From assembly GCA_015065295.1 (NCBI GenBank), contig SVQN01000030.1, positions 1 to 32,082 on the forward strand: a stretch of 32,082 nucleotides of DNA, read 5' to 3'. This stretch comes from Oscillospiraceae bacterium. Lineage in GTDB: Bacteria; Bacillota; Clostridia; Oscillospirales; CAG-272. The notes below the pieces were generated by a model that saw nothing but the letters and a program-made list of their open reading frames with translations, made no database searches and had not been told where the DNA came from. This document shows, one piece after another, positions 3,698 through 30,527 of this stretch. The position numbers were made by a program, and so were the translations under genes. The stretch's first letter is position 1. Each line of letters opens with the position of its first letter.

Positions 3698-3726
3698 AAA
3701 TCAGCACCCCGCGGGGTGCTGATTTT
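3697..3726. terminator. Bidirectional terminator between convergent genes
   Basis: A perfect stem: AAAATCAGCACCCC pairs with GGGGTGCTGATTTT around a GC centre. It overlaps both the TAA of the flavoprotein (3695-3697) and the TAA (TTA on +, 3725-3727) of the convergent membrane protein, so it serves both strands. Confidence 0.93.
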
Positions 3727-11324: not shown

Positions 11325-11433
11325 GGGGAAGAAACTTTTTGGAAAAAGTTTCTTCCCCTGTAGTTCCGCTTGCGGAACTACGCCCATCTTCAAAAACTTT
11401 TAAACTGGGAAACGAGGACAAAGTTTGTACAGA
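11325..11433 (+). repeat. Hairpin-repeat family, copy a
   Basis: The stem GGGGAAGAAACTTTTT (11325-11340) with AAAAAGTTTCTTCCCC (11343-11358) is perfect over 16 bp. A nested palindrome TAGTTCCGC-TT-GCGGAACTA (11361-11380) follows, then CATCTTCAAAAACTTTT and the family tail (TCTGTACAAACTTTGTCC read on -). It starts 14 bases after the Gfo stop; its far end supplies the NUDIX C-terminal codons. Confidence 0.85.
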
Positions 11434-11861
11434 CTTTGTCTTTTTTTGTTTAGAAATTCCATCGTTTTTTCATACAGCGCGGGCTGGATGAGCGGATAGG
11501 TGAGGGATTCCGGGAGACATTCGGAAATCATGATTTCGCCGATTTCCATTTCCGGCGGAAGGGTTCCGAGTTCCCGTACATCCGCATAATACAGCATCCC
11601 GTAAGTGATTTCATCTCCGGAACACACGCCGTACGCGCCGATTTTGTTCAGATCAAACGCGGCCGCTCCGGTTTCTTCGTACAGTTCCCGTCGCGCGGTA
11701 TCGTCGATGGCTTCGCCGGGTTCACGGTGACCGCCGGGGATTTCCCATGTGGTACGCTGTTTATGGCGGCAGAACAGCCAGCCGTTCCCGTACCGTGCCA
11801 TGATGACAGCGAATTTCAGCAGGCTGTCGTCCACGGTATCGAAAAATTTCACGTCAAGCAT
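11400..11861 (-). CDS. NUDIX hydrolase
   Basis: A 153-residue hydrolase of a nucleoside diphosphate linked to another group. The start is set at 11861 ([13 protein letters not shown]) because GGGAG lies 8 bases before it; an ATG five codons earlier has no ribosome site. The NUDIX box is complete: [24 protein letters not shown] (G-x5-E-x7-REL-x-EE-x-G). The first codons overlap the end of the kinase fusion gene by 13 bases, implying translational coupling within the minus-strand operon. The last ten residues ([10 protein letters not shown]) are encoded by the tail of hairpin-repeat copy a, so the C-terminus has been replaced or extended by the repeat. The substrate is not predictable; an oxidised-nucleotide or sugar-nucleotide role is possible. 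Confidence 0.9.
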
Positions 11862-13548
11862 AGTGCGTTCTCCCATTCATCGATCAGATTCACAATTGTC
11901 TGCTGTCGTTCGGAACGTTCATCGCTGACTGCGCGTCTGGCGACATGATAAGATTCATCGTTCAGCAGCCATGCCTCCTGCGTTCTCTGATAATTGCCGA
12001 ACAGGGCAAACGCCATGGCTCCTGCTGTGTATACGTTGGTGACTTCATCAAGGGTATCGCCGAGACGATATTCTTCGGGTGACTGGAACCGTGAACTGCC
12101 CCACATCCGTCCCATATCGTTGACTGTCGGCATTTTCCGGAAAAAGTCGATATCGCAGACGGTGGTTTTTCCGCTTGCTTCGTCGTACATGACACTGCCA
12201 TCATAGAAATCCACGGCAAAATATCCGTTTTCTGCGGTATGATGAAGGAAGCCGAGAAGATCGCGGTATAGCCCGAGTTTTTTCTCGAGCGGAAGGTTCA
12301 TAATCCGCTGATGCGATGCCGGATACATTCGTCCCATACAGTCTCCGTCCGCCCACCGGAATACGACCGCGTACCCGCCGCCGATTTCCATAGCATCTAT
12401 GAGTTCGACAAGATTCGGGTGACGGAGTGCATGGTAAACAGGAACGGTCGCACGCAGACGTTCCACGGCATCCATAGGAATTCCGTTATATTGTTCAGTC
12501 GGCGCACCGGCGAATTTTATGAAGTACCGTTCGCCGTCTTTCTCCGTTCCGAAGCAGATATTTCCGGAATCCTGATCGTCAAATACTTTAAAGACCCGTC
12601 CGAAACGTCTCAGAAAGCCGAAATCAAACGGAGCTTTCAGTTTATACGGAATGCCGTCAAGTTCCTGTAAATAATATCCCTCAAAATACCACGTCGGTAC
12701 CGGATTCCGCATATTGTCGTACCATTCCAGCACTTCCCGCGCCTGATTCATCATCGTGTCGATTTCATCCTGCCCGAACGGGATCGCCCAGTAGACCGAC
12801 GACAGCGTGTTGCTCGAAATGTACAGCGCGAGCAGCCGCCAGAAGTCCATCGGCACGTTTCCGTCAAAGTACCCGTTCACCATGCCGGACGCAAACAGCG
12901 GCGACACCTGCGCGCACCACACGATCCGGTTGAATTCCTCCCACGGGTCGCCGTAGTCGAAGCGGTTGAAGTCGATCACGGTGAGGGTGCCGCTTTGGTC
13001 AATCATCATGTTGCCGATATGGTAGTCGCCGTGCTGGAAGCTCTGCGGACGGTCATGCAGGAGATGCCGGTTTTCGTCAATGTACCGGATCATGTCCTCC
13101 GCGCCGTCGAACTTCAGCGGGCAGTCGCGGTAGCCTTTGATTTTCCGGTCGATTTTTTTGTTGAAGCGGGATTCCCATTCCTCCTGCGAATCCGGCGCGG
13201 GGATGGTGTGGATTTTGGCAAGAATCCGTCCGGCGGTGAGTCCGAAGGCATATTGTTCGGCATCGGAATACGAAGCGATCGTTTCTTCCGCGTCCGTACC
13301 GTCGATCCATGTCTGGACAGAGTATACGAATTCATCCGTTTTTCCGAACGTCAGCGGCGGCACATCGGGATTCCGAGCGTGTCCACTGCCTGCATGACTT
13401 CGAATTCGGCTTTTTTCTTTTCGTATGAGCCGGGTTCCGAGGTGCGGAGAAGATATTTTGTCCCGTCAGCGGTTTCCGCACAGTATTTTTTGTCTCCCGA
13501 CCAGCCTTTGTCAACGGGAGTTCGTTTGACAAGATTCGATAATTCCAT
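11849..13548 (-). pseudogene. Double-kinase fusion (APH-like plus Ser/Thr-kinase-like) interrupted by a frameshift
   Basis: Translation would begin at 13548 (MELSNLVKRT, GGAGGTG 5 bases upstream) and stops at TGA 13351-13353 after IPMCRR. The same protein continues at once in another frame (PPLTFGKTDEFVYS...) to 11849. Restoring one base in the CCGCCG run near 13355 rejoins them (MCR-PLTF). The joined protein of about 568 residues has two kinase folds. The first, about 300 residues, is APH-like, with HGDYHIGN (catalytic loop) and VIDFNRFDYGDPW (metal loop). The second, about 270 residues, starts at KLKAPFDFGFLRRFG and has YFIKFAG (the ATP lysine), HPNLVELIDA, AVDFYDGSV and CDIDFF in place of HRD and DFG. 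Both kinase cores look intact, so the frameshift is recent or an assembly error. It is the middle gene of an operon with the P-loop kinase and NUDIX genes. Confidence 0.8.
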
Positions 13549-13562
13549 GAAAATCACCTCCG

Positions 13563-14339
13563 TCAGAGAAGGAATGTCCGGATCTGTTCCCGCACGGAAT
13601 CCCAGTTTCCGGCGGACACGTCATAGATTCGGATATCCTCTGCGATGTGTTCCAGAACGATCCGGTCATTTTTGTGGCGGGTTTCCCAGAACGCGATATC
13701 CTCCGCAGACGGCGGATTCTGTCCCCGGTCGGCGTGTGCGCGGGTGAGCTGTGCGGCAATGTCGGCGGTTTCCAGATAGAAAATGCGCCGCTTCCGTCCG
13801 CCGAGGGATTCGAGCAGGGTACGGACGTGAGGAACCGCCTGTTCGCCGGTGATGTGATAATTCCGCATCATGTCGTTGATCGGATGATGGAGCAGGGAAC
13901 CGTCGAACAGGAGAAAATCGAACGTATCGTCGATGGATTCCGCGAAATCCGTCCAGACGTACCGGTAGGCTTCCGTATATTCGTCCATGGAAACGAGGTG
14001 CGCCGGATGGTAACAGAATTCCTTATTCCGCAGTTCGGCAAGAAGTACAGGTGCAAACAGCGGCGTATCTTCATCGAAATAGCGCACCAGACGCACTTCA
14101 CCCGCCGGGACTGCATATTTCCGGAGGGCATCCCGTTCGTCCGGGAACCGTTCGCAGAGATTCCGGTATTCGCCGGCGGTCAGGTAAGCGGTGCAGTAGA
14201 AGTCGATCGGGTTGGTAAAGTCGAATTCAAGATACGCGCGCACGCGGCATCCCGCCGCTGTCAGTTCGTCCGCCAGCATCCGCGCCATCGTGGATTTTCC
14301 GATGCCGGAGACCCCTTCGAGAAAAATCAGTTCGGTCAT
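13563..14339 (-). CDS. P-loop nucleoside/nucleotide-kinase-like protein
   Basis: The start is set at 14339 (MTELIFLEGVSGIGKST), where AAGGAGGG lies 4 bases upstream; the frame is open earlier without a ribosome site. The protein is 258 residues. The Walker A motif GVSGIGKST is at residues 9-17; FDFLLFDGSLLHHPINDMM (about 135-155) contains the Asp expected in Walker B, as in thymidylate-kinase-like proteins; GGRKRRIFYLET could be a lid or base-binding region. It probably phosphorylates a small molecule in the cytosol; the substrate is unknown. The downstream kinase fusion starts 14 bases after its stop, so it is the first gene of the minus-strand operon ending with the NUDIX gene. Confidence 0.8.
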   Translation of the reverse strand: MTELIFLEGVSGIGKSTMARMLADELTAAGCRVRAYLEFDFTNPIDFYCTAYLTAGEYRNLCERFPDERDALRKYAVPAGEVRLVRYFDEDTPLFAPVLLAELRNKEFCYHPAHLVSMDEYTEAYRYVWTDFAESIDDTFDFLLFDGSLLHHPINDMMRNYHITGEQAVPHVRTLLESLGGRKRRIFYLETADIAAQLTRAHADRGQNPPSAEDIAFWETRHKNDRIVLEHIAEDIRIYDVSAGNWDSVREQIRTFLL

Positions 14340-14385
14340 ACGTCCCTCCTTATTGCCTTGTTTAAAGTTTTTTCCCAAGAAATTC

Positions 14386-15768
14386 TCATCCCCCGAACAC
14401 CGACACGCCGGTCAGATTCGCCATGCTCAGTTCCGCTACGCATACCTTTTCACCGCCCTGCGGCGCATGAATGATTGTGTGTCTGCCATCCCGTTTGCCG
14501 AGATAGAGCATGACATGCCCCGGACGATACACCGCCGCCGGCTGATTCACCGTGTCCAGTACCCCGGACGGATCGTTTGCCAGCGATACCACCATCCCCG
14601 CGTACTTGCTCTGTTCGCCCGTATTGCGCGGCAGATACAGCCCGAACGTCCGGAAAACCGCGCAGACGAAGCCCGAGCAGTCCACCCCGCCGGACGATCC
14701 GCCCCAGCCGTAATCCGTGCCGAGATATAAAAACGCCTGACGGTAGTAATTTTTGATCGTATAATCCAGCGAACCGCGAATCGCATCTTCCTTGGAAATT
14801 TCCGTGTTCTCCAGCGTCAGCATTCCCGTTTCCGGATGCCTCTTCGGAACCTGCACCGTGTACGAATCCGCCGTTTCGCCGACGTACGGCAGAACCGCGC
14901 CCATGTCAAACCGGACGCCGCCGCATTCAATCACCCTGGCAAGCACCGTCACATAATCCTCCGGTGCCGCAAACAGACGGTATTCGTCGGCCGTACAGTG
15001 CGCCACATTCCCCGAAGGAATCCAGCCGCTGTAAAAATAGGAGAGGACAAACGCAAACTGTCCGTCCGAACTGGTGTGCAGAACGGCGGTGGGAAATCCC
15101 GAAATCAGTTCGGTCTCCTGAATTCCGTCGTAATGCGGCTCACCCTGCCGATGGAACGTCTTGTCGGTCGGGAACCGCTTGAGGTCGGAACGCGCCGTTA
15201 TGACCGCCCGTTTGGGTTCCACGATGTCCGGAATCCCGTCAAGGTTCCGGTTGTGACGGACATCCTCCCGCATATCGTGCGAAATCAGCGTGTTCCCATC
15301 CACATAGCGTTCGTCGGCGGGAAGCTCATAGTGTTCGATCATCGCCCGCACCTCCGCACCGGACATTTCCGCCGGAAGAGCGGTCATATCGCGCATCGTC
15401 GGCGTATCGGCGGTCATCTGCCGGTTCCAGCGGAGGATGTTCTCCCGATCCAGCAGAATCTTATCCGCCGTTCCGCTGCCGTAAGTGCCTTCGTACCAGT
15501 TCACCCAGTCCAACGCTTCCGCAGAAATCGTACGCTCATATTCCGGATAGCCTTCCGGTTCCGGCTCTTCCATCTCCGTTTCCGGCGGCGAAAAATCATG
15601 CACAGGCGCAGATATTTCCGGCGGCTCCTGTACGGGACGGTTTTCATGAGGCAAGGCATCCGCATCCCGCAGCGTAACACAGGAGGTCATACAAAACAAA
15701 AGCCCCACAGCAAGCGCAGACAACCCCAATTTTGTCCGTTTTCCCGTAAGGTCAAAAAAATATCGCAT
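14386..15768 (-). CDS. Lipoprotein NlpC/P60 (C40) endopeptidase with SH3-like domains
   Basis: The start is set at 15768 (MRYFFDLTGKRTKLGL); the frame is open as far as argF but the extra residues are encoded by a repeat. The protein is 460 residues. A lipoprotein signal peptide ends at the lipobox LFCMTSC, so it is anchored outside the cell membrane. A Pro/Glu-rich linker follows, then SH3-like regions (for example FAFVLSYFYSGWIPSGNVAHC). The NlpC/P60 domain fills the C-terminal 140 residues: GWGGSSGGVDCSGFVCAVFRTFG with the catalytic Cys, PGHVMLYLG with the catalytic His, and IIHAPQGG. It probably cuts gamma-D-Glu-diamino-acid bonds in cell-wall peptides. GGAG lies 12 bases before the start. 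Confidence 0.9.
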   Translation of the reverse strand: MRYFFDLTGKRTKLGLSALAVGLLFCMTSCVTLRDADALPHENRPVQEPPEISAPVHDFSPPETEMEEPEPEGYPEYERTISAEALDWVNWYEGTYGSGTADKILLDRENILRWNRQMTADTPTMRDMTALPAEMSGAEVRAMIEHYELPADERYVDGNTLISHDMREDVRHNRNLDGIPDIVEPKRAVITARSDLKRFPTDKTFHRQGEPHYDGIQETELISGFPTAVLHTSSDGQFAFVLSYFYSGWIPSGNVAHCTADEYRLFAAPEDYVTVLARVIECGGVRFDMGAVLPYVGETADSYTVQVPKRHPETGMLTLENTEISKEDAIRGSLDYTIKNYYRQAFLYLGTDYGWGGSSGGVDCSGFVCAVFRTFGLYLPRNTGEQSKYAGMVVSLANDPSGVLDTVNQPAAVYRPGHVMLYLGKRDGRHTIIHAPQGGEKVCVAELSMANLTGVSVFGG

Positions 15769-15814
15769 AAAAAAGAATAACTCCGTCCAAAAATTCCAAG
15801 AAAATCCATCCGAT

Positions 15815-15951
15815 TTCAACCGTACTCTGTCAATCCCTTTTATTTGAAAAGGTTTTTGGAAGGGGTTCGGACGAGATTCGCGGTGACTACTTTGTAGCCC
15901 CCGCGAACTCGAAACCTTTTTCCTCAAAAAAGGTTTCCCCGAGAAACTCCC
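15815..15951 (-). repeat. Hairpin-repeat family, copy b
   Basis: On the minus strand it begins 8 bases after the argF stop: GAAACCTTTTT (pair 15927-15937 with 15911-15921), a nested hairpin of the GAG-TTCGCGG type (15873-15910), then CCGAACCCCTTCC-AAAAACCTTTT and the family tail (GACAGAGTACGG). The stem has two extra C-G pairs compared with copies d and f, and the third segment has changed in step. Confidence 0.85.
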
Positions 15952-15956
15952 CTCAA

Positions 15957-16865
15957 TCACTTTGCCATCAGCTTGACCATGATGGCTTTCTGGGCGTGGA
16001 GACGGTTTTCGGCTTCCTCGAAAATTTCGTCGGCGTGCGCTTCAAAGACGTCGGCGGTGATTTCTTCGCCGCGGTGCGCGGGGAGACAGTGCTGAACCAT
16101 CGCGTTCTTTGCCGCGACGGATAGAACCTCCGCGTTGATCTGGTAGCCGGTGAAGACCTTGCGGCGTTCCGCAGCTTCTTCTTCCTGACCCATGGAGGCC
16201 CATACGTCGGTGAAGAGAACGTCTGCGTCCGCAGCCGCTTCGAGGATATTCTCGGTCATTGTATACATATTACCATATTTTTTCGTAAAGTCAAGAACTT
16301 TTTCGTCCGGCTGGTATGCGTTCGGGCAGGCAATCGCTACCTTCATGCCGACGGTCAGACCGCCGACGATGAGGGAGTTCGCCATGTTGTTGCCGTCGCC
16401 GATGTAGCACATCTTCAGACCGTCGAATCCGCCCTTGATTTCGCGGATCGTCATGAGGTCCGCCATGACCTGACAGGGGTGGCAGTAGTCCGTCAGACCG
16501 TTGATGACCGGGCAGGAACAGTAGTCCGCGAGGTCTTCGACTTCCTTCTGCGCGAAGGTACGGATCATAATGCCGTCGAGGTAGCGGGACAGAACGCGCG
16601 CAGTGTCTTCGAGCGGTTCGCCGCGGCCGATCTGGAGGTCACGGGGAGAGAGGAACAGCGGCTGACCGCCGAGCTGGTAAATCCCGGTTTCAAAGGATAC
16701 GCGGGTTCTGGTGGACGACTTCTGGAAAATCATGCCAAGGGACTGGCCCTTGAGGATGTGGTGTTCGATGCCGTGCTTGCGTTCATACTTCAGCTTGTCC
16801 GCGATGTCGAGCAGTTCGATGATGTCGTTCTTCGACAGATCGGACATTTTGAGAAAATCTTTCAT
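15957..16865 (-). CDS. argF: Ornithine carbamoyltransferase
   Basis: This 302-residue enzyme makes citrulline from ornithine and carbamoyl phosphate, a late step in arginine biosynthesis. The carbamoyl-phosphate motif STRTR is at residues 51-55, HPCQ at 129-132, DVWASMGQE near 225-233 and the ornithine-binding HCLPAHRGEE near 260. The length is typical for the anabolic enzyme. It is the last gene of the arginine cluster. The 5' leader is hairpin-repeat copy c, and no ribosome site is visible within 20 bases of the ATG (CCCAAGAATCACACATC), unlike argB or argG. Its stop is followed at once by copy b. Confidence 0.97.
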   Translation of the reverse strand: MKDFLKMSDLSKNDIIELLDIADKLKYERKHGIEHHILKGQSLGMIFQKSSTRTRVSFETGIYQLGGQPLFLSPRDLQIGRGEPLEDTARVLSRYLDGIMIRTFAQKEVEDLADYCSCPVINGLTDYCHPCQVMADLMTIREIKGGFDGLKMCYIGDGNNMANSLIVGGLTVGMKVAIACPNAYQPDEKVLDFTKKYGNMYTMTENILEAAADADVLFTDVWASMGQEEEAAERRKVFTGYQINAEVLSVAAKNAMVQHCLPAHRGEEITADVFEAHADEIFEEAENRLHAQKAIMVKLMAK

Positions 16866-16877
16866 GATGTGTGATTC

Positions 16878-16970
16878 TTGGGGAAAAACTTTTTTGAGAA
16901 AAAGTTTTTCCCCAAACCCCTTTTCAAAAAACTTTATACTGTATATTTTAATGGAGTTTGGTGCAGATTT
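16878..16970 (+). repeat. Hairpin-repeat family, copy c (argD-argF gap)
   Basis: TTGGGGAAAAACTTTTT (16878-16894) pairs with AAAAAGTTTTTCCCCAA (16899-16915), a perfect 17-bp stem, followed by ACCCCTTTTC-AAAAAACTTTA and the family tail (TCTGCACCAAACTC on -). It fills the whole gap between the argD stop and the argF start. Confidence 0.85.
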
Positions 16971-18141
16971 ACAGAACTTTTGCGAGGATTTCGATGCCGC
17001 GGTCGATTTCTTCGTAGGAGATCGTCAGCGGGGGGAGGAGGCGGACAACATCCGTGCCTGCCGTGAGAACGAGGAGTCCGTTGTCGAATGCGTCGTGCAG
17101 GACATCCTTCGGGGAAACGGTGACGGCAATCCCGGTCATCATGCCGATGCCGCGCACTTCCTTCACCTTATCGGAGCCGAGTGACGCGATTTTTTCGCGC
17201 ATATACGCACCCTTCGCGTTCACTTCGTCGAGGAATTCGTCCGTGATGCGTGAAACGACATTGCAAGCCGCCGCGCAGGAGACGGGGTTTGCGCCGAATG
17301 TGGAGCCGTGCATACTTGCGCCGAGGGTCTTTGCGCACTTTTCACCGGCGATGAACGTACCGATCGGCAGACCGCCGCCGAGACCCTTCGCCGTGGTGAC
17401 GATGTCGGGGGTGATGCCCGCGTTCATGTAGCCGAAGAACTTGCCGCAGCGTCCGATGCCGGTCTGGACTTCGTCCACGATCAGCAGGATGTCGCGGTCA
17501 CGGCAGAGGGCTTCGACCGCCTTCAGATAATCGGCGGAGAGAATGTTCACGCCGCCTTCGCCCTGTACGACTTCGAGCATCACCGCGCACACGTCGTCCG
17601 TGCAGGCAGCGGTCAGTGCGTCCATGTCGCCCGCGTCGCAGTACTTGAAGCCTTCCGTGAAGGGGAAGAAATACTGGTGGAACACGTCCTGACCGGTCGC
17701 CTTCAGTGTGGTGATCGTACGGCCGTGGAAGGACTTGTTCAGCGTGACGATGGTCGAGCGTCCTTCGCCGTATTTGTCAAAGCTGTACTTTCTCGCCAGT
17801 TTGATGGCACCTTCATTCGCTTCCGCGCCAGAGTTGCCGAAGAACATATTGCAGAGTCCGGTCTTTTCCGCGATCATGGAAGCGAGTTCGGATGCCTTGT
17901 CGCAGTAGAAATAGTTGGAAACGTGCTGGAAGCGGTTCACCTGTTCGATAACCGCGTTCTTCCAGCCTTCGTCGTTCCAGCCGAAGATGTTGACGCCGAT
18001 GCCGCTGGTGAAATCGACGAATTCTTTGCCGTTTTTGTCGGTCAGCACCGCACCGTGTCCCTCTTCGGGAACGAGGTCGAGCTTGCCGTAAGTCGCCATG
18101 ATGTTTTCATGGTCGAACGAGATTACATTTTCACGAATCAT
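16969..18141 (-). CDS. argD: Acetylornithine aminotransferase
   Basis: A 390-residue class III PLP aminotransferase that converts N-acetylglutamate semialdehyde to N-acetylornithine using glutamate. MFFGNSGAEANEGAIKLAR is the phosphate-binding region, LLIVDEVQTGIGR holds the cofactor Asp, and the PLP lysine is in TTAKGLGGGLPIG. SMHGSTFGANPVSCAA is the C-terminal family motif. It starts 10 bases after the argB stop with GAGG before the ATG, so it is translated as part of the same message. Its stop codon touches hairpin-repeat copy c. Confidence 0.97.
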   Translation of the reverse strand: MIRENVISFDHENIMATYGKLDLVPEEGHGAVLTDKNGKEFVDFTSGIGVNIFGWNDEGWKNAVIEQVNRFQHVSNYFYCDKASELASMIAEKTGLCNMFFGNSGAEANEGAIKLARKYSFDKYGEGRSTIVTLNKSFHGRTITTLKATGQDVFHQYFFPFTEGFKYCDAGDMDALTAACTDDVCAVMLEVVQGEGGVNILSADYLKAVEALCRDRDILLIVDEVQTGIGRCGKFFGYMNAGITPDIVTTAKGLGGGLPIGTFIAGEKCAKTLGASMHGSTFGANPVSCAAACNVVSRITDEFLDEVNAKGAYMREKIASLGSDKVKEVRGIGMMTGIAVTVSPKDVLHDAFDNGLLVLTAGTDVVRLLPPLTISYEEIDRGIEILAKVL

Positions 18142-18151
18142 AGTGGATACC

Positions 18152-19021: not shown

Positions 19022-19038
19022 AGTCGGTTTCCTCCGGA

Positions 19039-20277: not shown

Positions 20278-20304
20278 GGTAAACAAACCTCAAATTCAAT
20301 CTGT

Positions 20305-20415
20305 CAGTCTGCACCCAACTTCGTCAATTCCTTTGCCGGAAAGTTTTTGAAGATGGGGTTCGGGTGAGATTCGCTGCGCGAACTCAAAAACTTTTTCCAA
20401 AAAGTTTCTTCCCCG
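20305..20415 (-). repeat. Hairpin-repeat family, copy d (argC-argJ gap)
   Basis: On the minus strand, 15 bases after the argC stop: GGGGAAG-AAACTTTTT-GG-AAAAAGTTT (stem 20388-20407, 9 bp), a nested palindrome GAGATTCGC-TGC-GCGAACTC (20366-20385), then CCCGAACCCCATCTTC-AAAAACTTT and the family tail (GGGTGCAGAC). The 9-bp stem is the shortest in the family. Confidence 0.82.
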
Positions 20416-20429
20416 GTTATTCAATTTCC

Positions 20430-21470: not shown

Positions 21471-21484
21471 AAAATGGTGTTTCT

Positions 21485-21545
21485 CGGGGGAATCTTTTTT
21501 CAGGAAAAAGATTCCCCCGAACCCCTTTCAAAAACCTTTTTAATA
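21485..21545 (+). repeat. Hairpin-repeat family, copy e (argH-argC gap)
   Basis: CGGGGGAATCTTTTT (21485-21499) pairs with AAAAAGATTCCCCCG (21505-21519), a perfect 15-bp stem. The AAT/ATT pair replaces AAA/TTT of the other copies with both strands changed. CCCCTTTC-AAAAACCTTTTT follows. It fills the 80-base gap from the argH stop to the argC start. Confidence 0.85.
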
Positions 21546-21550
21546 TATAT

Positions 21551-22927: not shown

Positions 22928-22945
22928 GATGAATTATGTTTTTCT

Positions 22946-23030
22946 CGGGGGAAACTTTTTTGAGGAAAAAGTTTCCGAGTTCGCATCGCGAACCTCGCCC
23001 GAACCCCTTTCAAAAACCTTTTTAATAAAA
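22946..23030 (+). repeat. Hairpin-repeat family, copy f
   Basis: GGAAACTTTTT (22950-22960) pairs with AAAAAGTTTCC (22966-22976), followed by the nested palindrome GAGTTCGC-ATC-GCGAACCTC (22977-22996) and CCCGAACCCCTTTC-AAAAACCTTTTT. It points away from argH and faces copy g. Confidence 0.83.
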
Positions 23031-23038
23031 ATAAAAAC

Positions 23039-23102
23039 ATAGTTCAGCTTAAATTTGAAGATACTATGGTGTGAGTTAAACTTACAAAATAAGCCGAACT
23101 AT
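23039..23102. repeat. Inverted repeat between copies f and g
   Basis: ATAGTTCAGCTTA (23039-23051) and TAAGCCGAACTAT (23090-23102) pair over 13 positions with one G-T-type mismatch. The spacer is 38 bases. The two hairpin-repeat copies on either side are in opposite orientation, so the whole gap is a compound inverted repeat. Confidence 0.7.
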
Positions 23103-23124
23103 AAAAATTGCAATACCCCTTCAC

Positions 23125-23196
23125 AAATCCCGGATGAAAAGTTTTTGAAAAGGGGTTCGGGGAGAAACTTTTTCTCAAAAAGTTTCTCCCCGAGAA
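23125..23196 (-). repeat. Hairpin-repeat family, copy g
   Basis: On the minus strand about 10 bases after the argG stop: CGGGGAGAAACTTTTT with AAAAAGTTTCTCCCCG (23158-23192), a perfect 16-bp stem with a three-base loop, then AACCCCTTTTC-AAAAACTTTTC. No nested palindrome is present in this copy. It could act as the argG terminator. Confidence 0.85.
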
Positions 23197-23202
23197 AAAA
23201 TC

Positions 23203-24426: not shown

Positions 24427-24485
24427 TTCTATATACCTCTTTGATTATTTTTGATTTTTTGTGGGGTTTGTTTTTGTGTGAGCAT

Positions 24486-24514
24486 ATTATACCTCTCCTC
24501 TGTCGAAAATGCAA
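24486..24514 (-). promoter_or_regulatory. Promoter of the arginine cluster
   Basis: On the minus strand, TATAAT (24486-24491) is perfect, 17 bp from TTGCAT (24509-24514), a weak -35. The start codon lies about 60 bases downstream. A weak -35 fits a regulated promoter. Confidence 0.75.
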
Positions 24515-24533
24515 TAGGCAGGTTGACCAAATC

Positions 24534-24568
24534 GGAATAAATATGCAATAAATATTTATAAAAATACA
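24534..24568. promoter_or_regulatory. Two ArgR-like boxes
   Basis: Against TGAATAWWWATTCA, 24534-24547 (GGAATAAATATGCA) matches 12 of 14 and 24555-24568 (TTTATAAAAATACA) 11 of 14. Their starts are exactly 21 bp apart, the spacing used by ArgR hexamers. They lie just upstream of the argG -35. The region is AT-rich, so chance matches are possible. Confidence 0.5.
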
Positions 24569-24726
24569 CAATTTACCCGCATATATGCAGGGTTTATACA
24601 TTTTCTGTACGCTGTTCAGGAAACAATTCCGCCGGAAAATTGCGTAAAAGGCATAAATTTACGCGGTTATTTGCCGCATGGACGGTTAGAATAAACAACG
24701 AATCTCGGAGAGAAAGGAGATTCTAT

Positions 24727-25656
24727 ATGAAATTCACAAAGCATACACTTCCGCTTTTGCTGGCGGCGGTCATGATTGTCCCGCCCGTACTTGCGGAACG
24801 TGCGTCTGCGGAGATGCCGGCCGGACTGTTTGACTTTTTCCGTAAAGAGGAAGCCCCCGAAACCGAGCCTCTTCCGGAAGATGTTCCGCCGAAACGCGGA
24901 AACAGGAGTCCGTGCAAAGAAAAAGAAAAGGACTGTGCCGCATCCGCAGAAGCGTCAAACTGGTACTGCAAGCACATGGAGGGCGGGAAACGTCCGCCGA
25001 TGCCGGGAGAGATGACGTTCATTGACAAGCACGGCGGCTATTTCCTCGGAGAGGACGACAAAGTTCTCTACCTGACCTTTGACGCCGGCTACGAAAACGG
25101 CAATGTCGCCCGCATTCTCGATACGCTGAAGGCGGAGGAGGTTCCCGCCGCGTTCTTCATCCTTGAAAATCTCGTCACGCGGAATACCGATCTGGTGAAG
25201 CGCATGAACGATGAGGGACATCTCGTCTGCAATCACACCGCGAAGCATCCCGACATGACAACAAAATCCCAGACGGAATTCACCGACGAACTGGCGGCAA
25301 TGGAAAAAATCTATAAGGATACAATGGGGACGGACATCGCAAAATATTATCGTCCGCCGGAAGGAAAGTTCACGGAAGCAAATCTTGAGTGGGCGAATTC
25401 GCTCGGCTACAAGACGATTTTCTGGAGCTACGCCTACGCCGACTGGGACAACGATCACCAGATGCCGGCGGACAAAGCCGTGAAGAAAGTCCTTGACGGG
25501 ACGCACAACGGCGCGGTGATCCTGCTTCACCCGACCTCCGCGACCAATGCCGATATTCTGCCGGAGCTGATCCGGGAGTGGAAGGCGATGGGCTACCGCT
25601 TCGGTACGCTCGACGAACTGACTGCGAACGGCGATCTTACCAAAAATCAAACGTAA
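24727..25656 (+). CDS. pdaA: PdaA-type delta-lactam-biosynthetic polysaccharide deacetylase
   Basis: The start is set at ATG 24727 (MKFTKHTLPLLLAAVMIV), where AAAGGAG lies 8 bases upstream; the earlier in-frame TTG has none. The protein is 309 residues. A signal peptide (cut near AERASA) sends it across the membrane; a Pro/Glu/Lys-rich linker follows. The NodB domain has YLTFDAGYENGN in place of TFDDGP, the metal motif HTAKHPDM, RPPEGKF, and FWSYAYADWDNDHQ, all as in PdaA of Bacillus, which removes acetyl groups from muramic acid to form the muramic delta-lactam of the spore cortex. It supports a sporulating host. The next deacetylase gene follows after 12 bases. Confidence 0.9.
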   Translation: MKFTKHTLPLLLAAVMIVPPVLAERASAEMPAGLFDFFRKEEAPETEPLPEDVPPKRGNRSPCKEKEKDCAASAEASNWYCKHMEGGKRPPMPGEMTFIDKHGGYFLGEDDKVLYLTFDAGYENGNVARILDTLKAEEVPAAFFILENLVTRNTDLVKRMNDEGHLVCNHTAKHPDMTTKSQTEFTDELAAMEKIYKDTMGTDIAKYYRPPEGKFTEANLEWANSLGYKTIFWSYAYADWDNDHQMPADKAVKKVLDGTHNGAVILLHPTSATNADILPELIREWKAMGYRFGTLDELTANGDLTKNQT

Positions 25657-25668
25657 AGCTGGGATGAA

Positions 25669-26361
25669 ATGCGTCGGAACCGAATTCTGAAATCCGTCCT
25701 GTGCGCCGGTATTGTTCTGATGTTCGGAGGAACGGCCGTTTTTCCCGTGTCGTCGGCAGAGGTGGTCTATTCGTGGCATACCAACGACAAGACGATTGCC
25801 CTGACGTTTGACGACGGACCGCATCCGGTCTATACGCCCGAAATCCTCGATATTCTCGGAGAATACGGCGTGAAAGCGACTTTTTTCACCATCGGGCAGA
25901 ACGTGGAATGGTATAACGATGTGTTCCGGATGGAATATGCCGCCGGTCATGAGATCGGGAACCACACCTATTCCCATCAGAATCTGCGGAAACTTCCGTA
26001 TAAATCGGTCTGCCGGGAGATCGAGCAGGCGGAAGAACTGGTGTATGAGGCAACCGAATACCGGACAAGGCTGCTGCGTCCGCCGGAGGGAGCGTTCGGA
26101 CACGATCTGTGCAAAGCGGCGGCGGAACTGGATTATACGGTGATCTGCTGGTCGGTGGATACTCTCGACTGGGCGCACACACCGAGCGACGAGATCGTGA
26201 CCAACGTGCTGGAAAACGTCAAGGGCGGGGACATCATCCTGTTTCACGATTATATCGCCGGAGATTCCCCGACACCGGATGCGCTGCGGGTGATTATTCC
26301 GGCCTTGCTGGACGAAGGATACCGGTTTGTCACGGTGTCGGAATTATTGAACGGAAAATAA
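25669..26361 (+). CDS. Secreted polysaccharide deacetylase (NodB/PdaB-like)
   Basis: A 230-residue protein. Residues 1-30 are a signal peptide (VLCAGIVLMFGGTAVFPVSSAE). The NodB domain is classical: ALTFDDGPHPVYTPEIL with the catalytic Asp, HTYSH with the metal-binding His residues, RPPEGAFG, CWSVDTLDW and DIILFHDY with the last conserved His. It probably deacetylates N-acetylglucosamine or N-acetylmuramic acid in the wall or cortex. It starts 12 bases after the pdaA-like gene, so the two form an operon; the ribosome site is weak (GGGATG). The exact polysaccharide is uncertain. Confidence 0.9.
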   Translation: MRRNRILKSVLCAGIVLMFGGTAVFPVSSAEVVYSWHTNDKTIALTFDDGPHPVYTPEILDILGEYGVKATFFTIGQNVEWYNDVFRMEYAAGHEIGNHTYSHQNLRKLPYKSVCREIEQAEELVYEATEYRTRLLRPPEGAFGHDLCKAAAELDYTVICWSVDTLDWAHTPSDEIVTNVLENVKGGDIILFHDYIAGDSPTPDALRVIIPALLDEGYRFVTVSELLNGK

Positions 26362-26363
26362 AG

Positions 26364-26397
26364 AAAAACTGCTGTTCCCATGGGAACGGCAGTTTTT
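26364..26397 (+). terminator. Terminator after the deacetylase operon
   Basis: AAAAACTGCTGTTCCC with GGGAACGGCAGTTTTT: a 16-bp stem with a two-base loop and one wobble pair, ending in a T run, 3 bases after the stop. Confidence 0.93.
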
Positions 26398-26398
26398 C

Positions 26399-26437
26399 AG
26401 TGAAGAGAGAAAAGAGAAGAGTGAAAAGAAAAGGAAA
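26399..26437 (+). repeat. Purine-rich repeat, copy 2
   Basis: About 40 purine-rich bases (core AAAGAGAAGAGTGAAAAG) matching 3656-3696 with about four differences. As at copy 1, it lies between a plus-strand gene end and a perfect-palindrome terminator of a convergent gene. Confidence 0.75.
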
Positions 26438-26464
26438 AAAACCGATGCTGCAGCATCGGTTTTT
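26437..26464. terminator. Perfect palindrome terminator of the DUF624-like gene
   Basis: AAAAACCGATGCTG and CAGCATCGGTTTTT are exact reverse complements with no loop bases. It lies 4 bases after the minus-strand stop. Confidence 0.9.
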
Positions 26465-26467
26465 GAA

Positions 26468-27592
26468 TTATTCTTCGGTGCCCATTTCTTCGTAGAACGG
26501 GTCGATCATGTACTGCTTGATCTTCGGATAAGCGGCGTAAACGCTCATCGTGACGATCATCGCGGGGATGATGACGAACGGCATGATGACGGCGAGCGGG
26601 AAGTACGCGTACATCAGGACGTATTCGAGCAGGAGAAGGACGAGCGTTCCGAGAAGGAACATGAAGTTCCGCTTGACGCCGAGGACGGTGAAGCGGATCG
26701 CGTTCTTGAACATCTTGAAGATGGACAGGTCGAACGTGACGATCATCAGGTAGATGTACGGACGCATGAAGTAATAGAGAAGCGCAAGGCACCAGACCAT
26801 GAACAGCATGGTGTCCAGAACGAAGTTCATGCCGTAGTTGAGGTTGAAGAAGATGATGTCGAAAATCAGGAGGAAGATGATGCCGAGGTCGAGGATGCCG
26901 TAAATCATCGCCTGACGGAAGTTGCGCTTGATGGTGTCAAAGAAGTCCTGCATGACGAAGACCGGCTTCCCGCGGAACAGGTTGCGGACGATGTAAGTCA
27001 CGCCGACGCGGACGGGGCCGAAGGTGAGGATCACCAGCGCGGAGAGGGCGAACAGGACATAGTCCGTGGTGGTCAGCACCGGCACTTCCATCTGACGGGA
27101 GAAGATCGTCCAGAGCGCGGAGGTGGCGGGGGAGTGGTCATACAGCATTGCGCCGCGCAGAGGTGCGAACACGAGATAATACGGTGTGGTGGTGTGGATG
27201 GAGAAGTAGCCGCTCATGGCGAGGAAGAAGAAGAAAATGGGGAAGTTTCCGAGAACGAGCAGCATATTCACCGAGAGAATCGGATTGAGCTTGCGGCCGA
27301 GGAATTTGAAGAAATTGACGAGCGTCGGATTTTCGGCGATCTGTTCTTCTTCCTTGTCCACGCCGCGTCCGTCGGCGTACATCGAACTGAAGATGTTGTG
27401 CTTTTTCTTTTCCGCCTGCTTGGCACGTTTTTTCTCCGCCTGTTCGCGGGCTTCAATTTCGTCAAGGGAGAGATTTTCTTCCTCCCGCTGACTCGAACTT
27501 TTCCAGTTGTTCCGGCCGTAATTGGTCGGATGCGGTTCGCCGCCGCCGGGAATACCGTTCCGGCTGTTCCGGTTATTGCTATCGTTGGCCAT
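26468..27592 (-). CDS. DUF624 (YesL)-like membrane protein with a long charged N-terminus
   Basis: A 374-residue protein. Residues 1-105 are hydrophilic (Asn/Gly-rich start, then KKRAKQAEKKKHNIF). About six membrane spans follow, such as ILSVNMLLVLGNFPIFFFFLAMSGYF (about 127-152), YVLFALSALVILTFGPV, DLGIIFLLIFDIIFF, LFMVWCLALLYYFMRPYIYL, FMFLLGTLVLLLLEYVLMYAYFPLAVIMPFVIIP. The segment FGPVRVGVTYIVRNLFRGKPVFVMQDFFDTIKRNFRQA resembles the core of DUF624/YesL proteins, often found with carbohydrate uptake genes, but no such genes are nearby. AAAGGTG precedes the ATG by 7 bases. The function is unknown; a lone gene. Confidence 0.8.
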   Translation of the reverse strand: MANDSNNRNSRNGIPGGGEPHPTNYGRNNWKSSSQREEENLSLDEIEAREQAEKKRAKQAEKKKHNIFSSMYADGRGVDKEEEQIAENPTLVNFFKFLGRKLNPILSVNMLLVLGNFPIFFFFLAMSGYFSIHTTTPYYLVFAPLRGAMLYDHSPATSALWTIFSRQMEVPVLTTTDYVLFALSALVILTFGPVRVGVTYIVRNLFRGKPVFVMQDFFDTIKRNFRQAMIYGILDLGIIFLLIFDIIFFNLNYGMNFVLDTMLFMVWCLALLYYFMRPYIYLMIVTFDLSIFKMFKNAIRFTVLGVKRNFMFLLGTLVLLLLEYVLMYAYFPLAVIMPFVIIPAMIVTMSVYAAYPKIKQYMIDPFYEEMGTEE

Positions 27593-27666
27593 GTTGATTC
27601 ACCTTTGTTTTGTATTTCATGTTATTTACAGCAATTCTCCAAAAATATGCAATACAGAACGAATAT

Positions 27667-27811
27667 TTCGTAGGGACACGGCGCGCCGTGTCCGCTAAAA
27701 AATTTGAACAGAGTATATTTTGTAAATAAAATATCCGATTTGGATGGATTTCCGACAAAACATCGTTTATCCAAATTGATTGCCGGACACGGCACGCCGT
27801 GTCCCTACGAA
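27667..27811. mobile_element. MITE-like element with hairpin ends, about 145 bp
   Basis: The ends are near-perfect inverted repeats of 28 bases (27667-27694 and 27784-27811) starting TTCGTAGGGACACGG; they differ at one base. Each end carries its own palindrome: the left GGACACGGCGCGCCGTGTCC is perfect over 20 bases, and the right has one change. The middle is AT-rich without an open frame and has an 8-bp inverted repeat (ATTTGGAT, ATCCAAAT). It occupies the gap between two convergent-neighbour membrane genes. No clear target-site duplication is visible. Confidence 0.75.
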
Positions 27812-27861
27812 TCGAGCTTTTTGAGTTTGTATTCTTTTTTTGGAAGCTGTAATAATTTGCT

Positions 27862-28482
27862 TTATAAACTCCCCTGCATCAGCAGAACTGCCGCCGTTCC
27901 CAGCACAAAAATGCCGCCGGAAATCAGCAGAAACAGAATCAGCCAGTCTGCCGCCGCCGTCCGGAACCGCCGGATATCTCCGTCCGCGTAGGTGCGGCAC
28001 AGATACCGCGACACAGAACAGGAACAGGAAGCGAGCAGAATCATCAGGACGGACGCCGCAAAATAGAGGATCAGCGCGGGAACCCAGTGCCGTCCGATGC
28101 TGACGACCGAGCCGTTTTTCATGAGGACGCCCGCGCATCCGAGACAGAGTCCCCGCCAGACGATGACCGTTCCCGAAACTGCGGATGACCACGGCGTGTG
28201 CGCGGCGGCGTAAATACCGAAAAGCGCGATTGCCGATGGAAACAGGCATCGGAGAACGGACAGAACAACCACAGCGGGACATCCGCCCGTTACGGGAGAA
28301 ACCGCAAGAAAAACGCCGCCGTGCGGCCGCATCAGGATCGGAGCCAGAAGAAATCCGCACAGAAAAGCGAGCGCGAACAGAAGAAGACCGGCAAGAAAAC
28401 GGATCGCCAGTCTCCGGGAAGGCTGTCCTGTCCCGGCGGATGATTCGCGGGAATGCAGGAAAGAGGAGAGGGTATCGTTCAT
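27862..28482 (-). CDS. Small multi-span membrane protein, possibly SpoIIM-like
   Basis: The start is set at 28482 (MNDTLSSFLHSRESSAGTG), where GGAGG lies 6 bases upstream; the frame is open earlier but lacks a ribosome site and crosses the divergent promoter region. The protein is 206 residues. Spans are at about 26-48 (FLAGLLLFALAFLCGFLLAPIL), 70-90, 100-118, 130-150 (ALILYFAASVLMILLASC) and 180-203. The central VIVWRGLCLGCAGVLM, followed by a short loop and a long span, recalls the SpoIIM/UPF0114-type layout, but the match is weak. It could be a sporulation membrane protein or simply an unknown one. It is divergent from the GNAT gene. Confidence 0.65.
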   Translation of the reverse strand: MNDTLSSFLHSRESSAGTGQPSRRLAIRFLAGLLLFALAFLCGFLLAPILMRPHGGVFLAVSPVTGGCPAVVVLSVLRCLFPSAIALFGIYAAAHTPWSSAVSGTVIVWRGLCLGCAGVLMKNGSVVSIGRHWVPALILYFAASVLMILLASCSCSVSRYLCRTYADGDIRRFRTAAADWLILFLLISGGIFVLGTAAVLLMQGSL

Positions 28483-28639
28483 GGTGCCTCCGCATGAAAA
28501 GAATGAGGATGTTACCCCAATGTATGCGGGAAGACGCGGAACGATACCGGAATTTCTATGAAGTGTACCACAGGTTCCTGCGGAATACAATACATGAAAT
28601 GTAAATTTAATAAAAATTGAAGAATATCCCGGGAGGTTC

Positions 28640-28668
28640 TTGAAAAAACAGGAGTCATGGCTTATAAT
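28640..28668 (+). promoter_or_regulatory. Promoter of the GNAT gene
   Basis: TTGAAA (28640-28645), 17-bp spacer, TATAAT (28663-28668). The start codon is 35 bases downstream. Confidence 0.87.
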
Positions 28669-28703
28669 GATAGCAACAATTGGATGGGACAGGAGACTTC
28701 GGA

Positions 28704-29291
28704 ATGACACACGACGAGATCACCCATATTTTCCGCGAACCGCCGGTGCTGGAAACGCGCCGTCTGGTGCTGCGGAAGATGCAGAAGCGCGACAGCCACG
28801 ATATGTACGAATACGCCAGCCGCCGCGACGTGACGGAATACCTCCTCTGGGAGCCGCACGAAAGCGAATATTATACCTACCGGTATCTGGCGTATATCCA
28901 GTCCCGTTACCGTGCCGGCGATTTCCACGACTGGGCGGTGACGCTCCGGGACAGCGGCAAGATGATCGGCACCTGCGGCTTCACGCGGTTCAATTATGAC
29001 GCGAATTCCGCCGAAGTGGGGTATGTCCTGAATCCCGCATACTGGGGATACGGCATCGCACCGGAAGCAGTGTCCGCCGTGATGCGGTTCGGATTCGTGA
29101 ATCTGCGGGTGAACCGGATCGAAGCACGGTATATGGTCGGCAACGACCGGAGCCGCCGCGTGATGGAGAAAGTCGGCATGACGTTCGAGGGAATCGCAAG
29201 AGAATCCATGCACGTCAAGGGACGGTATGTCTCGGTGGGAACGTGCGCGATTCTGAGAAGGGAATTTCAGGAAAAGTTCGGCGTGATATAA
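28704..29291 (+). CDS. GNAT-family N-acetyltransferase (RimJ/RimL-like)
   Basis: The start is set at ATG 28704 (MTHDEITHIFREPPVLETRRLVLR) with AGGAG 10 bases upstream. The protein is 195 residues. The acetyl-CoA site is seen in EVGYVLNPAYWGYGIAPEAVSAVMRFGF, the core Q/R-x-x-G-x-G/A-like loop, with NRIEARYMVGNDRSRRVMEKVGMTFEG after it: the typical signature of the RimJ/RimL subfamily, which acetylates protein N-termini or small amines. It begins with ETRRLVLRKMQKRD, the usual first strand. It has its own promoter and stands alone. The substrate is unknown. Confidence 0.92.
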   Translation: MTHDEITHIFREPPVLETRRLVLRKMQKRDSHDMYEYASRRDVTEYLLWEPHESEYYTYRYLAYIQSRYRAGDFHDWAVTLRDSGKMIGTCGFTRFNYDANSAEVGYVLNPAYWGYGIAPEAVSAVMRFGFVNLRVNRIEARYMVGNDRSRRVMEKVGMTFEGIARESMHVKGRYVSVGTCAILRREFQEKFGVI

Positions 29292-29307
29292 AGAAAAAAG
29301 TAAAATC

Positions 29308-29391
29308 ACCTGTAGTGATAGTTGAACGAGCGACTTTTGCCTCCCTCGCTGAGGGAGGCAATGACTGTTTATTTAACTGGCACTATGAGGT
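29308..29391. repeat. 84-bp nested palindromic element
   Basis: Outer arms ACCT-n-TAGTG and CACTA-n-AGGT, inner AGTT and AACT, and a central 10-bp hairpin TGCCTCCCTC-GCT-GAGGGAGGCA (29338-29360) fold into one long cruciform-like structure. There is no open frame. It lies between the GNAT stop and the terminator of the convergent kinase gene. Confidence 0.6.
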
Positions 29392-29397
29392 AAACTC

Positions 29398-29426
29398 AAA
29401 AGGAGATACCCGCCGTATCTCCTTTT
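29398..29426. terminator. Terminator of the APH-like kinase gene (bidirectional)
   Basis: AAAAGGAGATAC and GTATCTCCTTTT form a 12-bp stem with a 5-base loop. It lies 5 bases after the minus-strand stop and has A-rich and T-rich flanks, so it can serve both convergent genes. Confidence 0.9.
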
Positions 29427-29431
29427 TTGAC

Positions 29432-30400
29432 TTATTTTTTCAGCTTTTCCCAGAATTCCAGCATCCGCGCACGGTTGCGGCGGTAGTCTTCCTCGGTGTC
29501 ATATTTCCGCGTGAAATGCTCGCCCATGAACGCCAGATTGATCCAGATGTTATACCACGTCAGCCGACGCTGTTCGCTTTCGCTGAATTCCGTCTGACCG
29601 AATCCTTCCAGAAAATCCGGATTCATCCCGTAGGAACGGAACCGGTCTTCCATCAGCGGTTCCGCCCACAACGCGCGTTCCCAGTCGATGATCCCGGTAA
29701 TTTCATCCCCCTGGATGAGAATATTGTTCTCCCATATATCAAAATGCACCAGCGACGCTTCCGTTACTTCATCGAAATACGGCTTGTCCGCGAGAAGCTG
29801 CGCGAGAATTTCGTCCCGCGTCACGCCCATATCCGCGCCGCACCGTTCCATGTCGCCCGTGACATTTCCGATGAGCTGGTTCACCACCCCATACAGCGAA
29901 TCAAATTCAATCCCGCTGTTCACGATGCCGAAGAAACCGTTTTTGATCTTCCCGATGTCCCGTACCGCGCGTCCCATCGCCGTGTACAGGGCTTTCGACT
30001 GCTCCTTCGTGAACGTCTTCCGCAGAGGTGCCATCAGATCGCCTTCCACGAATTCCATGAAGAAATATTTTCCGCTGCACCGCGTCATGTTGTCGTCGTA
30101 AAACAAAACCTTCGGCGCGGGAACCTCCGGCGCACGTTCTGCGATCAGACGCATCGCTGCCGTTTCCGATTCGATCAGCCACTGTTCGTTGGAAGCTTTC
30201 CCGACCATTCCGGGAGACGAAACCTTCAGCACGGTTCTGAAGCCGTCCGTCATCGTCACAACATACAACGCGTTGCACATCCCTGCCGTCAATTCTTCGA
30301 TTTCCGAAACTTCCCGTTCCGGAAATGCAATGTTGAACAACTCCCGGATTTTTTCTTCACTCAGTTTGTTTTTCGAAGCCGAATCCGCAGTTGAAATCAT
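29432..30400 (-). CDS. Aminoglycoside-phosphotransferase-like small-molecule kinase
   Basis: The start is set at 30400 (MISTADSASKNKLSEEKIREL), where GGAGGG lies 7 bases upstream; the frame is open earlier but runs into hairpin-repeat copy h. The protein is 322 residues. The kinase fold is complete: AGMCNALYVVTM and TVLKVSSP in the N-lobe (ATP lysine), FFMEFVEGD in the hinge, VHFDIWENNILI as the catalytic H-x-D-x4-N loop and TGIIDWERALWAEPL as the metal-binding Asp loop. It probably phosphorylates a hydroxylated small molecule or antibiotic; the family alone does not show resistance. It is convergent with the GNAT gene. Confidence 0.9.
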   Translation of the reverse strand: MISTADSASKNKLSEEKIRELFNIAFPEREVSEIEELTAGMCNALYVVTMTDGFRTVLKVSSPGMVGKASNEQWLIESETAAMRLIAERAPEVPAPKVLFYDDNMTRCSGKYFFMEFVEGDLMAPLRKTFTKEQSKALYTAMGRAVRDIGKIKNGFFGIVNSGIEFDSLYGVVNQLIGNVTGDMERCGADMGVTRDEILAQLLADKPYFDEVTEASLVHFDIWENNILIQGDEITGIIDWERALWAEPLMEDRFRSYGMNPDFLEGFGQTEFSESEQRRLTWYNIWINLAFMGEHFTRKYDTEEDYRRNRARMLEFWEKLKK

Positions 30401-30411
30401 ATAGAATCCCT

Positions 30412-30527
30412 CCAAATCTGCACAAACTCTGTCCAATCCCCTTATTAAATGTTTTTGAAGAGAGGCAGAGTATTTGCTGCACAAAAACTCCGGGGAGGGG
30501 CTTTTTCAAAAAAGTCCCTCCCCGAGA
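30412..30527 (-). repeat. Hairpin-repeat family, copy h
   Basis: On the minus strand 6 bases after the YchF stop: CGGGGAGGGACTTTTT with AAAAAGCCCCTCCCCG (30491-30524), 16 positions with one wobble, G-C-rich where other copies have A-T. A different inner hairpin (GCAG with CTGC, near 30465-30480) replaces the usual palindrome. The family tail (GACAGAGTTTGTGCAGA) is very clear. Confidence 0.83.

Follow-up and report, generated by a model that had tools for sequence, protein, structure and literature searches.

BoxC of E. coli, also called PIT or TM_ECO, is a dispersed intergenic repeat with 23 copies in strain MG1655 and is found at variable loci (Holder et al., 2015; PMC4666352, cited here and below from excerpts). 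It consists of a hairpin, a 3-nt linker and a third strand that mirrors the purine arm of the hairpin, and five cases have been reported in which a type A and a type B copy form an inverted pair. According to these excerpts, BoxC forms a stable triplex in vitro and has no promoter or terminator activity, and the evidence for a selected role of its triplex goes no further than this folding, its conservation and a link with variable loci. Here we describe a repeat family that was met in a contig of 32,082 nucleotides from an Oscillospiraceae bacterium (SVQN01000030.1 of assembly GCA_015065295.1, hereafter the window), with eight copies at gene borders. In every one of them, a hairpin is followed on the copy's own strand by a third segment. 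By geometry, not by sequence, this element is of the same kind as BoxC. Sequence comparison makes it fairly probable that it is a non-autonomous insertion element, similar to a miniature inverted-repeat transposable element (MITE), with triplex-coded ends that would be kept by folding. With slightly less assurance, we propose that base-triad covariation keeps the sequence of this natural element, a strand-switching intrastrand triplex being the selected fold of a mobile element's ends in many genera of one clostridial order.

The BoxC consensus, CCCTCNCCC N3-6 GGGNGAGGG N3 GGGNGAGGG (PMC4666352), does not fit the copies, which read GGGGAAAAC..GTTTTCCCC RAA CCCCTTTC. Moreover, BoxC is of class II with one homopurine stem, whereas the third segment here lies 5′ on its strand (the class I order) and switches purine strands halfway, and the hairpin loop holds a further T/A stem. 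The copies also hug gene borders and number about 190, compared to 23 for BoxC. Strand switch, gene-border habit and covariation are what the clostridial family adds to the BoxC kind. A published triplex-motif finder allowed loops of 1–6 nt (PMC4666352), given which it should not list the present plan. At gathering score, Rfam returned only a tRNA in the window and no family match for the copies. The preliminary description of the window, made from its letters alone, knew of no named family with this plan, and indeed searches of Rfam and of an open-access collection of papers found none; the similar plan of BoxC/PIT had gone unmentioned.

Coupling between hairpin and third segment

The window is contig C116 of genome G000 (2.9 Mb in 135 contigs, 70.8% complete); other G numbers denote the genomes compared and L numbers individual stretches. 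In a set of 145 uninterrupted copies, 69 of them from G000, the third segment tracks the hairpin. A purine tract of n bases is accompanied by n−1 in the third segment in 139/145 copies. G in X′ goes with C in Y in 85/85 cases and GG with CC or CCC in 58/59, while a loop AAGG or GAGG goes with CC as Z in 28/28 and CGAG with GC in 11/11. The stem-base pair is C-G or T-A in 141/145. The X′–Y and loop–Z couplings are nested and occur in many combinations; the pattern behind the combination analysis fixes base classes, and its score tests lengths only. Interrupted purine tracts are tracked position by position, GGGGAAGAAA being found with CCCCATCTT, GAGAGGAA with CTCTCCT, GGAGGAAA with CCACCTT and GGGGAGGAA with CCCCTCTT.

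An unbiased pattern that fixes the inner stem only (CTTTTTN{1,4}AAAAAGN{11,24}CAAAAACTTT) was searched throughout the order. Of the 394 genomes searched, 52 contain it, as do 27 of the 169 genera; the table shows none for the reversed control. The 127 strings listed comprise 121 that are distinct within genomes; without three of G303, which represent a different repeat, 118 remain, with 96 distinct pairs of arm and third segment from up to 23 genomes. Read in mirror image and with one base skipped, the third segment fits 503 of the 552 outer-arm positions in these pairs, a value reached by none of 5000 length-matched shuffles (mean 380.7, SD 9.6, maximum 413). The fit is perfect in 60 of the 96 pairs (shuffle mean 13.8, maximum 27), and 0/3000 within-genome shuffles reach the observed fit. 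The direct, unmirrored reading fits 347 positions versus 357.5 for shuffles (z = −1.2). Third segments as widely different as CTCTCTCTT, CTCCCTCCC and CCCTTCCC each follow their own arm. As in an intrastrand triplex repeat, the third segment thus mirrors the purine arm with canonical triads. In an earlier, noisier set that had kept wrong-strand hairpins, the parallel fit was 461/560 and was reached by 0/2000 shuffles. A second pattern with another inner stem, searched class-wide, occurs in 5/391 genomes, one string (from G100) looking like the element. Watson–Crick pairing of the third segment with the hairpin arm or loop, tried by hand, accounts for single subtypes only.

The couplings could alternatively be linked diagnostic changes of subfamilies derived from a few masters, the triplex match being incidental. 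The copies are homologous and many share one of few subtypes, as this explanation would have it. It is nevertheless quite improbable, given that the nested feature pairs occur in many combinations, which single-crossover mixing would break, that 60 of 96 pairs fit perfectly and the fit exceeds that of within-genome shuffles (statistics without tree correction), and that outer and inner base preferences differ as the triads predict.

Changes between species were followed in 15 aligned stretches of G000 and G012, 12 of which have the element in both. In six of these ortholog pairs, the hairpin and the third segment changed together within flanks that are 83–90% identical. One example is L042/L148, with C/CGAG and C/GC in one species versus CC/GAGG and CC/CC in the other; a second is L047/L157, with CCC and CCC versus CC and CC. 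L048/L139, L057/L008, L108/L142 and L109/L171 also changed in step, and L043/L029, L093/L022 and L114/L025 show no change that cleanly tests the code.

Base preferences bear on the strand and the type of the triplex. On the top strand of the order-wide set, arm2 C is opposite C in 255/284 and arm2 G opposite C in 29/30, and outer arm2 T is opposite T in 163 and A in 56 of 232; six A in arm2 are without a fitting partner in the code. The inner stem was assessed in 108 distinct hairpins of the stretches examined, chosen by perfect outer fit only. Here C is opposite C in 139/144, and T is opposite A in 519/559 and T in 4, compared to T opposite T in 533 and A in 420 in hairpins with a non-fitting outer third. 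Read on the other strand, the preferences fit G·GC with A·AT or T·AT, the antiparallel purine motif, and then G·GC with T·AT in parallel. That the outer part takes A or T and the inner part A but hardly T is what would be expected if the antiparallel motif allows both A·AT and T·AT (PMC4666352) and the parallel one only T·AT; PMC4807104 (likewise cited from excerpts) deals with G·GC/T·AT triplets in parallel orientation. The strand carrying the third segment 5′ of the hairpin is thus the fitting one, since a top-strand fold would need C+·GC and bar A from the outer positions. Synthetic oligonucleotides that form alternate-strand triplexes use equal triads and the same purine–pyrimidine switch design, and in these the third strand should drop one base at the 5′-purine–pyrimidine-3′ junction. 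They are known as designed ligands, whereas here a natural element would fold on itself.

A pyrimidine-motif triplex, either in the top strand or in RNA, is disfavoured by these preferences. This concerns the idea that an RNA triple helix of that motif forms in the transcript, with the third segment downstream, and protects mRNA 3′ ends. The outer third CCCCTTT does have the parallel course along GGGGAAA that U·AU and C+·GC require, and RNA can form pyrimidine but not purine-motif triplexes (PMC4666352). However, 56 of 232 outer A–T positions have A as their third base on top, which the pyrimidine motif bars, the inner part fits no RNA motif, C+ needs acid and the start-codon copies have the other orientation, which leaves such a helix scarcely credible.

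Spread of the family and its place at gene borders

In G000, the 17-nt core CGAACCCCTTTCAAAAA has 173 matches at ≤2 mismatches (reversed control 8) and CCCCRAACCCCTTYCAAAAA has 193 at ≤1 mismatch (control 4). The genus is represented by 25 genomes, G000 among them; three have high copy numbers (193, 208 and 62 pattern matches) and the other 22 have 0–3. The concentration in the arginine cluster, as first described, is real in the window, but the family is spread over the whole genome, where the core has about 190 matches. At least 96 stretches were obtained from a scan of named genomes; among those listed, 90 carry Clostridia titles (Clostridia, Clostridiales, Ruminococcus, Ruminiclostridium, Oscillospiraceae), many come from one metagenome-assembled genome of goat caecum, RGIG1778, and six others (Verrucomicrobia, Kiritimatiellae, one untitled bacterium) are without the hairpin. 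Spread by phages was considered as well, and the exact pattern is present in 0 viral contigs.

Gene borders, defined as the ends of open frames of ≥100 codons, were located around 100 G000 copies with enough flank. A border lies ≤30 nt from the hairpin side in 83 of these copies and from the tail side in 14, compared to 64/401 random positions. In other genera the habit is weaker than in G000 (a border ≤30 nt away in 11/29 on the hairpin side, 4/29 on the tail side, 12/101 at random). The nearest hairpin-side border is a stop codon in 66 copies, 5–23 nt from the hairpin in 61 of them, and a start codon in 32; two have no border within 200 nt. TTTCTC precedes the G run in both stop-facing and start-facing copies and is therefore probably the element's own. 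At the argF and argC starts (window 16865 and 21470), copies face start codons at 11–20 nt. A start-facing copy occupies the place of a relative's Shine–Dalgarno sequence (AGAAGG at argF of G022), and the element end CCCCGAGAAA may serve in its stead.

The genes around the copies, argG, argH, argC, argJ, argB, argD, argF and ychF, were named by NCBIfam and other genes by Pfam, which confirms that six of the eight copies sit among argG-H-C-J-B-D-F. This order is common to the genomes compared, as far as contigs reach, and its junctions are filled differently. The family is present at argC-argJ in G000 only (143 nt; gap of 15 nt in G012 and 14 nt in G022) and at argJ-argB in G012 only (290 nt, two units tail to tail; 17 nt in G000 and 18 nt in G022). 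Both G000 and G012 are filled at argH-argC and argD-argF (gaps of 16 and 22 nt, respectively, in G022), and a pair of units stands at argG-argH in both G000 and G022. In its arg region, G022 holds only this pair and an apparently decayed copy after argF; four junctions that are filled in G000 or G012 lack copies there, with gaps of 14–22 nt. G008, G017, G007 and G014 have short gaps at inner arg junctions as far as sequence covered them. G013 and G015 carry other, unrelated inserts at some arg junctions, different repeats of congeners being found at some identical junctions (L243 of G013, L239 of G015), and these junctions seem to attract inserts. Because the gaps of G022 measure 14–22 nt where G000 or G012 carry copies, the copies were most likely inserted into short spacers of the operon, where they cannot be needed as terminators. 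The filled and empty junctions in close relatives and the many copies in three genomes of the genus support the earlier suggestion that the copies could be mobile.

The same suggestion held that they could end or process transcripts. Terminators or 3′-end processing sites moved as a kit would account for the 66 copies whose nearest hairpin-side border is a stop codon, and for the short distance in 61 of these. Such sites are highly improbable, however: what comes after the stem is RAACCCC or a nested palindrome and not a U-tract, both orientations occur, with a start codon as the nearest border in 32/100, copies lie inside the arg operon at the junctions with the short G022 gaps, and the terminator-like hairpin of copy a lies only further down its tail. 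A terminator search of the window listed none of the eight family hairpins.

Paired units, related repeats and the copies of the window

With an ad hoc detector, 113 units were identified in the G000 stretches examined, of which 36 form 18 tail-to-tail pairs and none pair head to head; 77 have no detected partner within 400 nt. The two third segments lie 149–154 bp apart in 12 of the 18 pairs, giving a fuller paired form of 212–225 bp. By eye, the two units differ in tract length in 16 pairs, one being short (GGGGAAAAC type) and the other long (GGGGAGGAAC type), with inner tails that form inverted repeats again; the pairs of L020 and L160 consist of two short-tract units. These pairs recall the inverted pairs of BoxC. 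The tail TCTGCACAAACTCTGTC of the preliminary description is part of a longer inner palindrome that joins two units tail to tail. Inverted terminal repeats, a feature of MITEs, are thus found in the 18 pairs. Like the MITEs ERIC, RUP and Correia, the family is about 220 bp long, nearly palindromic, non-coding, intergenic and present in many copies; unlike them, it has triplex-coded ends, and no cognate transposase or clean target duplication was found for it. In two genomes, G000 and RGIG8808, the outer arm of some copies (L012 flanks, L096, L130) is extended before the G run by ACGTGAGTTCGATRGAATTCTC or a similar sequence, and in L012 the inverse of a ACGTGAGTTCGATRGAATTCTC-like arm lies beyond the element's other end.

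REP/BIME repeats, which go with RAYT (TnpA_REP), are also short intergenic palindromes that often lie near stop codons. The RAYT/Y1-transposase-like gene of G000 (C113; L215, 1620–2228), however, carries another repeat, CGTAGGGACACGGCGTGCCGTGTCC, with two copies (one inverted) inside its open frame. This REP-like repeat also stands as an inverted pair in the window (27667–27811). No family unit was found in the RAYT-like stretches of G000, L215 and L234. Y1_Tnp matches occur in 26/59 genomes searched, and RAYT-like genes are present in congeners without the family as well, with no evident correlation between the two. Among 39 partly overlapping stretches around Y1/RAYT-like genes, one, L211 (G034:C14), has an element-like unit, a GTGGGGGGACTTTTTC hairpin with a matching third segment (2663–2736), beside the RAYT-like gene of another genus. 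This single case leaves room for a RAYT link.

All eight copies of the window were found at the places first described (Table 1), with stop codons at the hairpin side of a, b, d, g and h and start codons at that of c, e and f. Their common plan holds as regards the hairpin and the third segment that comes after it; the sequence of the latter is CCCATCTTC, CCCCATCTTC and CCTCTCTTC in a, d and h, respectively, instead of CGAACCCCTTTC. By eye, these deviations track the arm of the hairpin, completely in a and d but only partly in h. When five of the copies are folded as single-stranded DNA, their z values lie between −2.6 and −7.7. The nested palindrome is not a fixed part of the plan but an optional addition. 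Palindromes of the GAGATTCGC..GCGAACTC type occupy the loop or the foot of the stem within the hairpins of copies b, d and f and of L006, L025, L027, L029, L175 and L181. They are absent from two G012 orthologs (L043/L029, L114/L025) and may be separate later inserts or hairpin growth. The window additionally contains two copies of a AGTGAAAAGAGAAAAGAGAAG repeat (3659–3700 and 26399–26440, 93% alike) and, at about 31642–31900, another high-copy repeat that matches tens of places in G022 and G012.

Table 1. Family copies in the window, with positions of their parts
Copy	Position	Strand	Hairpin	Third segment	Border	Remarks
a	11325..11401	+	11325-11358	11383-11401	faces stop codon	optional second hairpin
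b	15847..15940	-	15912-15940	15847-15865	after argF stop	nested palindrome after hairpin
c	16880..16937	+	16880-16913	16917-16937	faces argF start	G022 site empty
d	20338..20414	-	20386-20414	20338-20358	after argC stop	nested palindrome; G012 and G022 sites empty
e	21486..21545	+	21486-21518	21522-21545	faces argC start	G022 and G008 sites empty
f	22947..23029	+	22947-22976	23004-23029	faces argH start	nested palindrome; one end of f/g pair
g	23134..23191	-	23159-23191	23134-23155	after argG stop	other end of f/g pair
f+g	22947..23191	.				composite of two units tail to tail; 245 bp with nested insert
h	30445..30523	-	30492-30523	30445-30465	after ychF stop	

Proposed fold and its meaning

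The fuller form of about 220 bp is nearly palindromic, and each end consists of a hairpin (a purine block, then a pyrimidine block) and a third segment that, in the fold that we propose, can occupy the hairpin's major groove. The third-first strand (minus for + copies) reads 5′-AAAGG TTTTT GG AA GGGG-TTC-GGGG AAA CC TTTTT-loop-AAAAA GG TTT CCCC-3′. Its third strand would lie antiparallel along the outer block of purines, forming G·GC, A·AT or T·AT triads, skip one base at the purine–pyrimidine junction and then run parallel to the other arm's purines (G·GC, T·AT), which would result in an intrastrand alternate-strand triplex. Single-stranded DNA of this strand presumably folds so in the cell, and the code may be kept because the folded ends are recognised by a putative enzyme acting in trans, or because folded copies are more readily multiplied. 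Just outside coding sequences, the place of least harm, copies would persist.

Another possibility is that the triplex code is real but has polymerase stalling and local instability as its consequence, with no enzyme reading the fold and the copies being tolerated parasites. For BoxC/TM_ECO, the closest known motif, a block of DNA polymerase in vitro and an occurrence at variable loci have been reported (PMC4666352), and orthologous copies of the present family differ much between species. We consider this explanation unlikely, as it is silent on the growth in copy number in three of 25 genus genomes and on the precise keeping of the code.

Several points weigh against an element kept by folding. 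The n−1 rule is missed by 6/145 copies, copy h fits the code in part only, and in three ortholog pairs (L049/L024, L085/L011, L126/L141) one arm changed and the third segment did not follow. Gene conversion between copies could be the source of the concerted ortholog changes; it can move whole subtypes but leaves the code itself unexplained. The base tables use the best place for the skipped base, a freedom equally given to the shuffles; with the skip fixed at the junction the signal stays (455 versus a mean of 320.9, maximum 361). For the 41 odd purine tracts of the noisier set alone, with its wrong-strand noise included, 30/2000 length-matched shuffles reach the observed fit. In vivo footprinting did not support a triplex in BoxC/TM_ECO (PMC4666352). 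At the insertion sites compared, there is no clear target duplication except a possible TTGAAT at argC-argJ of G000, and neither a cognate transposase nor recent movement has been demonstrated.

It has long been asked, and is still open, whether triple-helical DNA serves a selected function in cells; the present repeats make this question directly testable. The third segment and the stem vary together, and the strand, the register (n−1 at the junction) and the triads can be read from alignments; therefore, code-breaking and code-restoring mutants can be designed. The family also explains one class of hairpins at gene borders, found in gut Clostridia that are uncultured, which are open to misreading as terminators.

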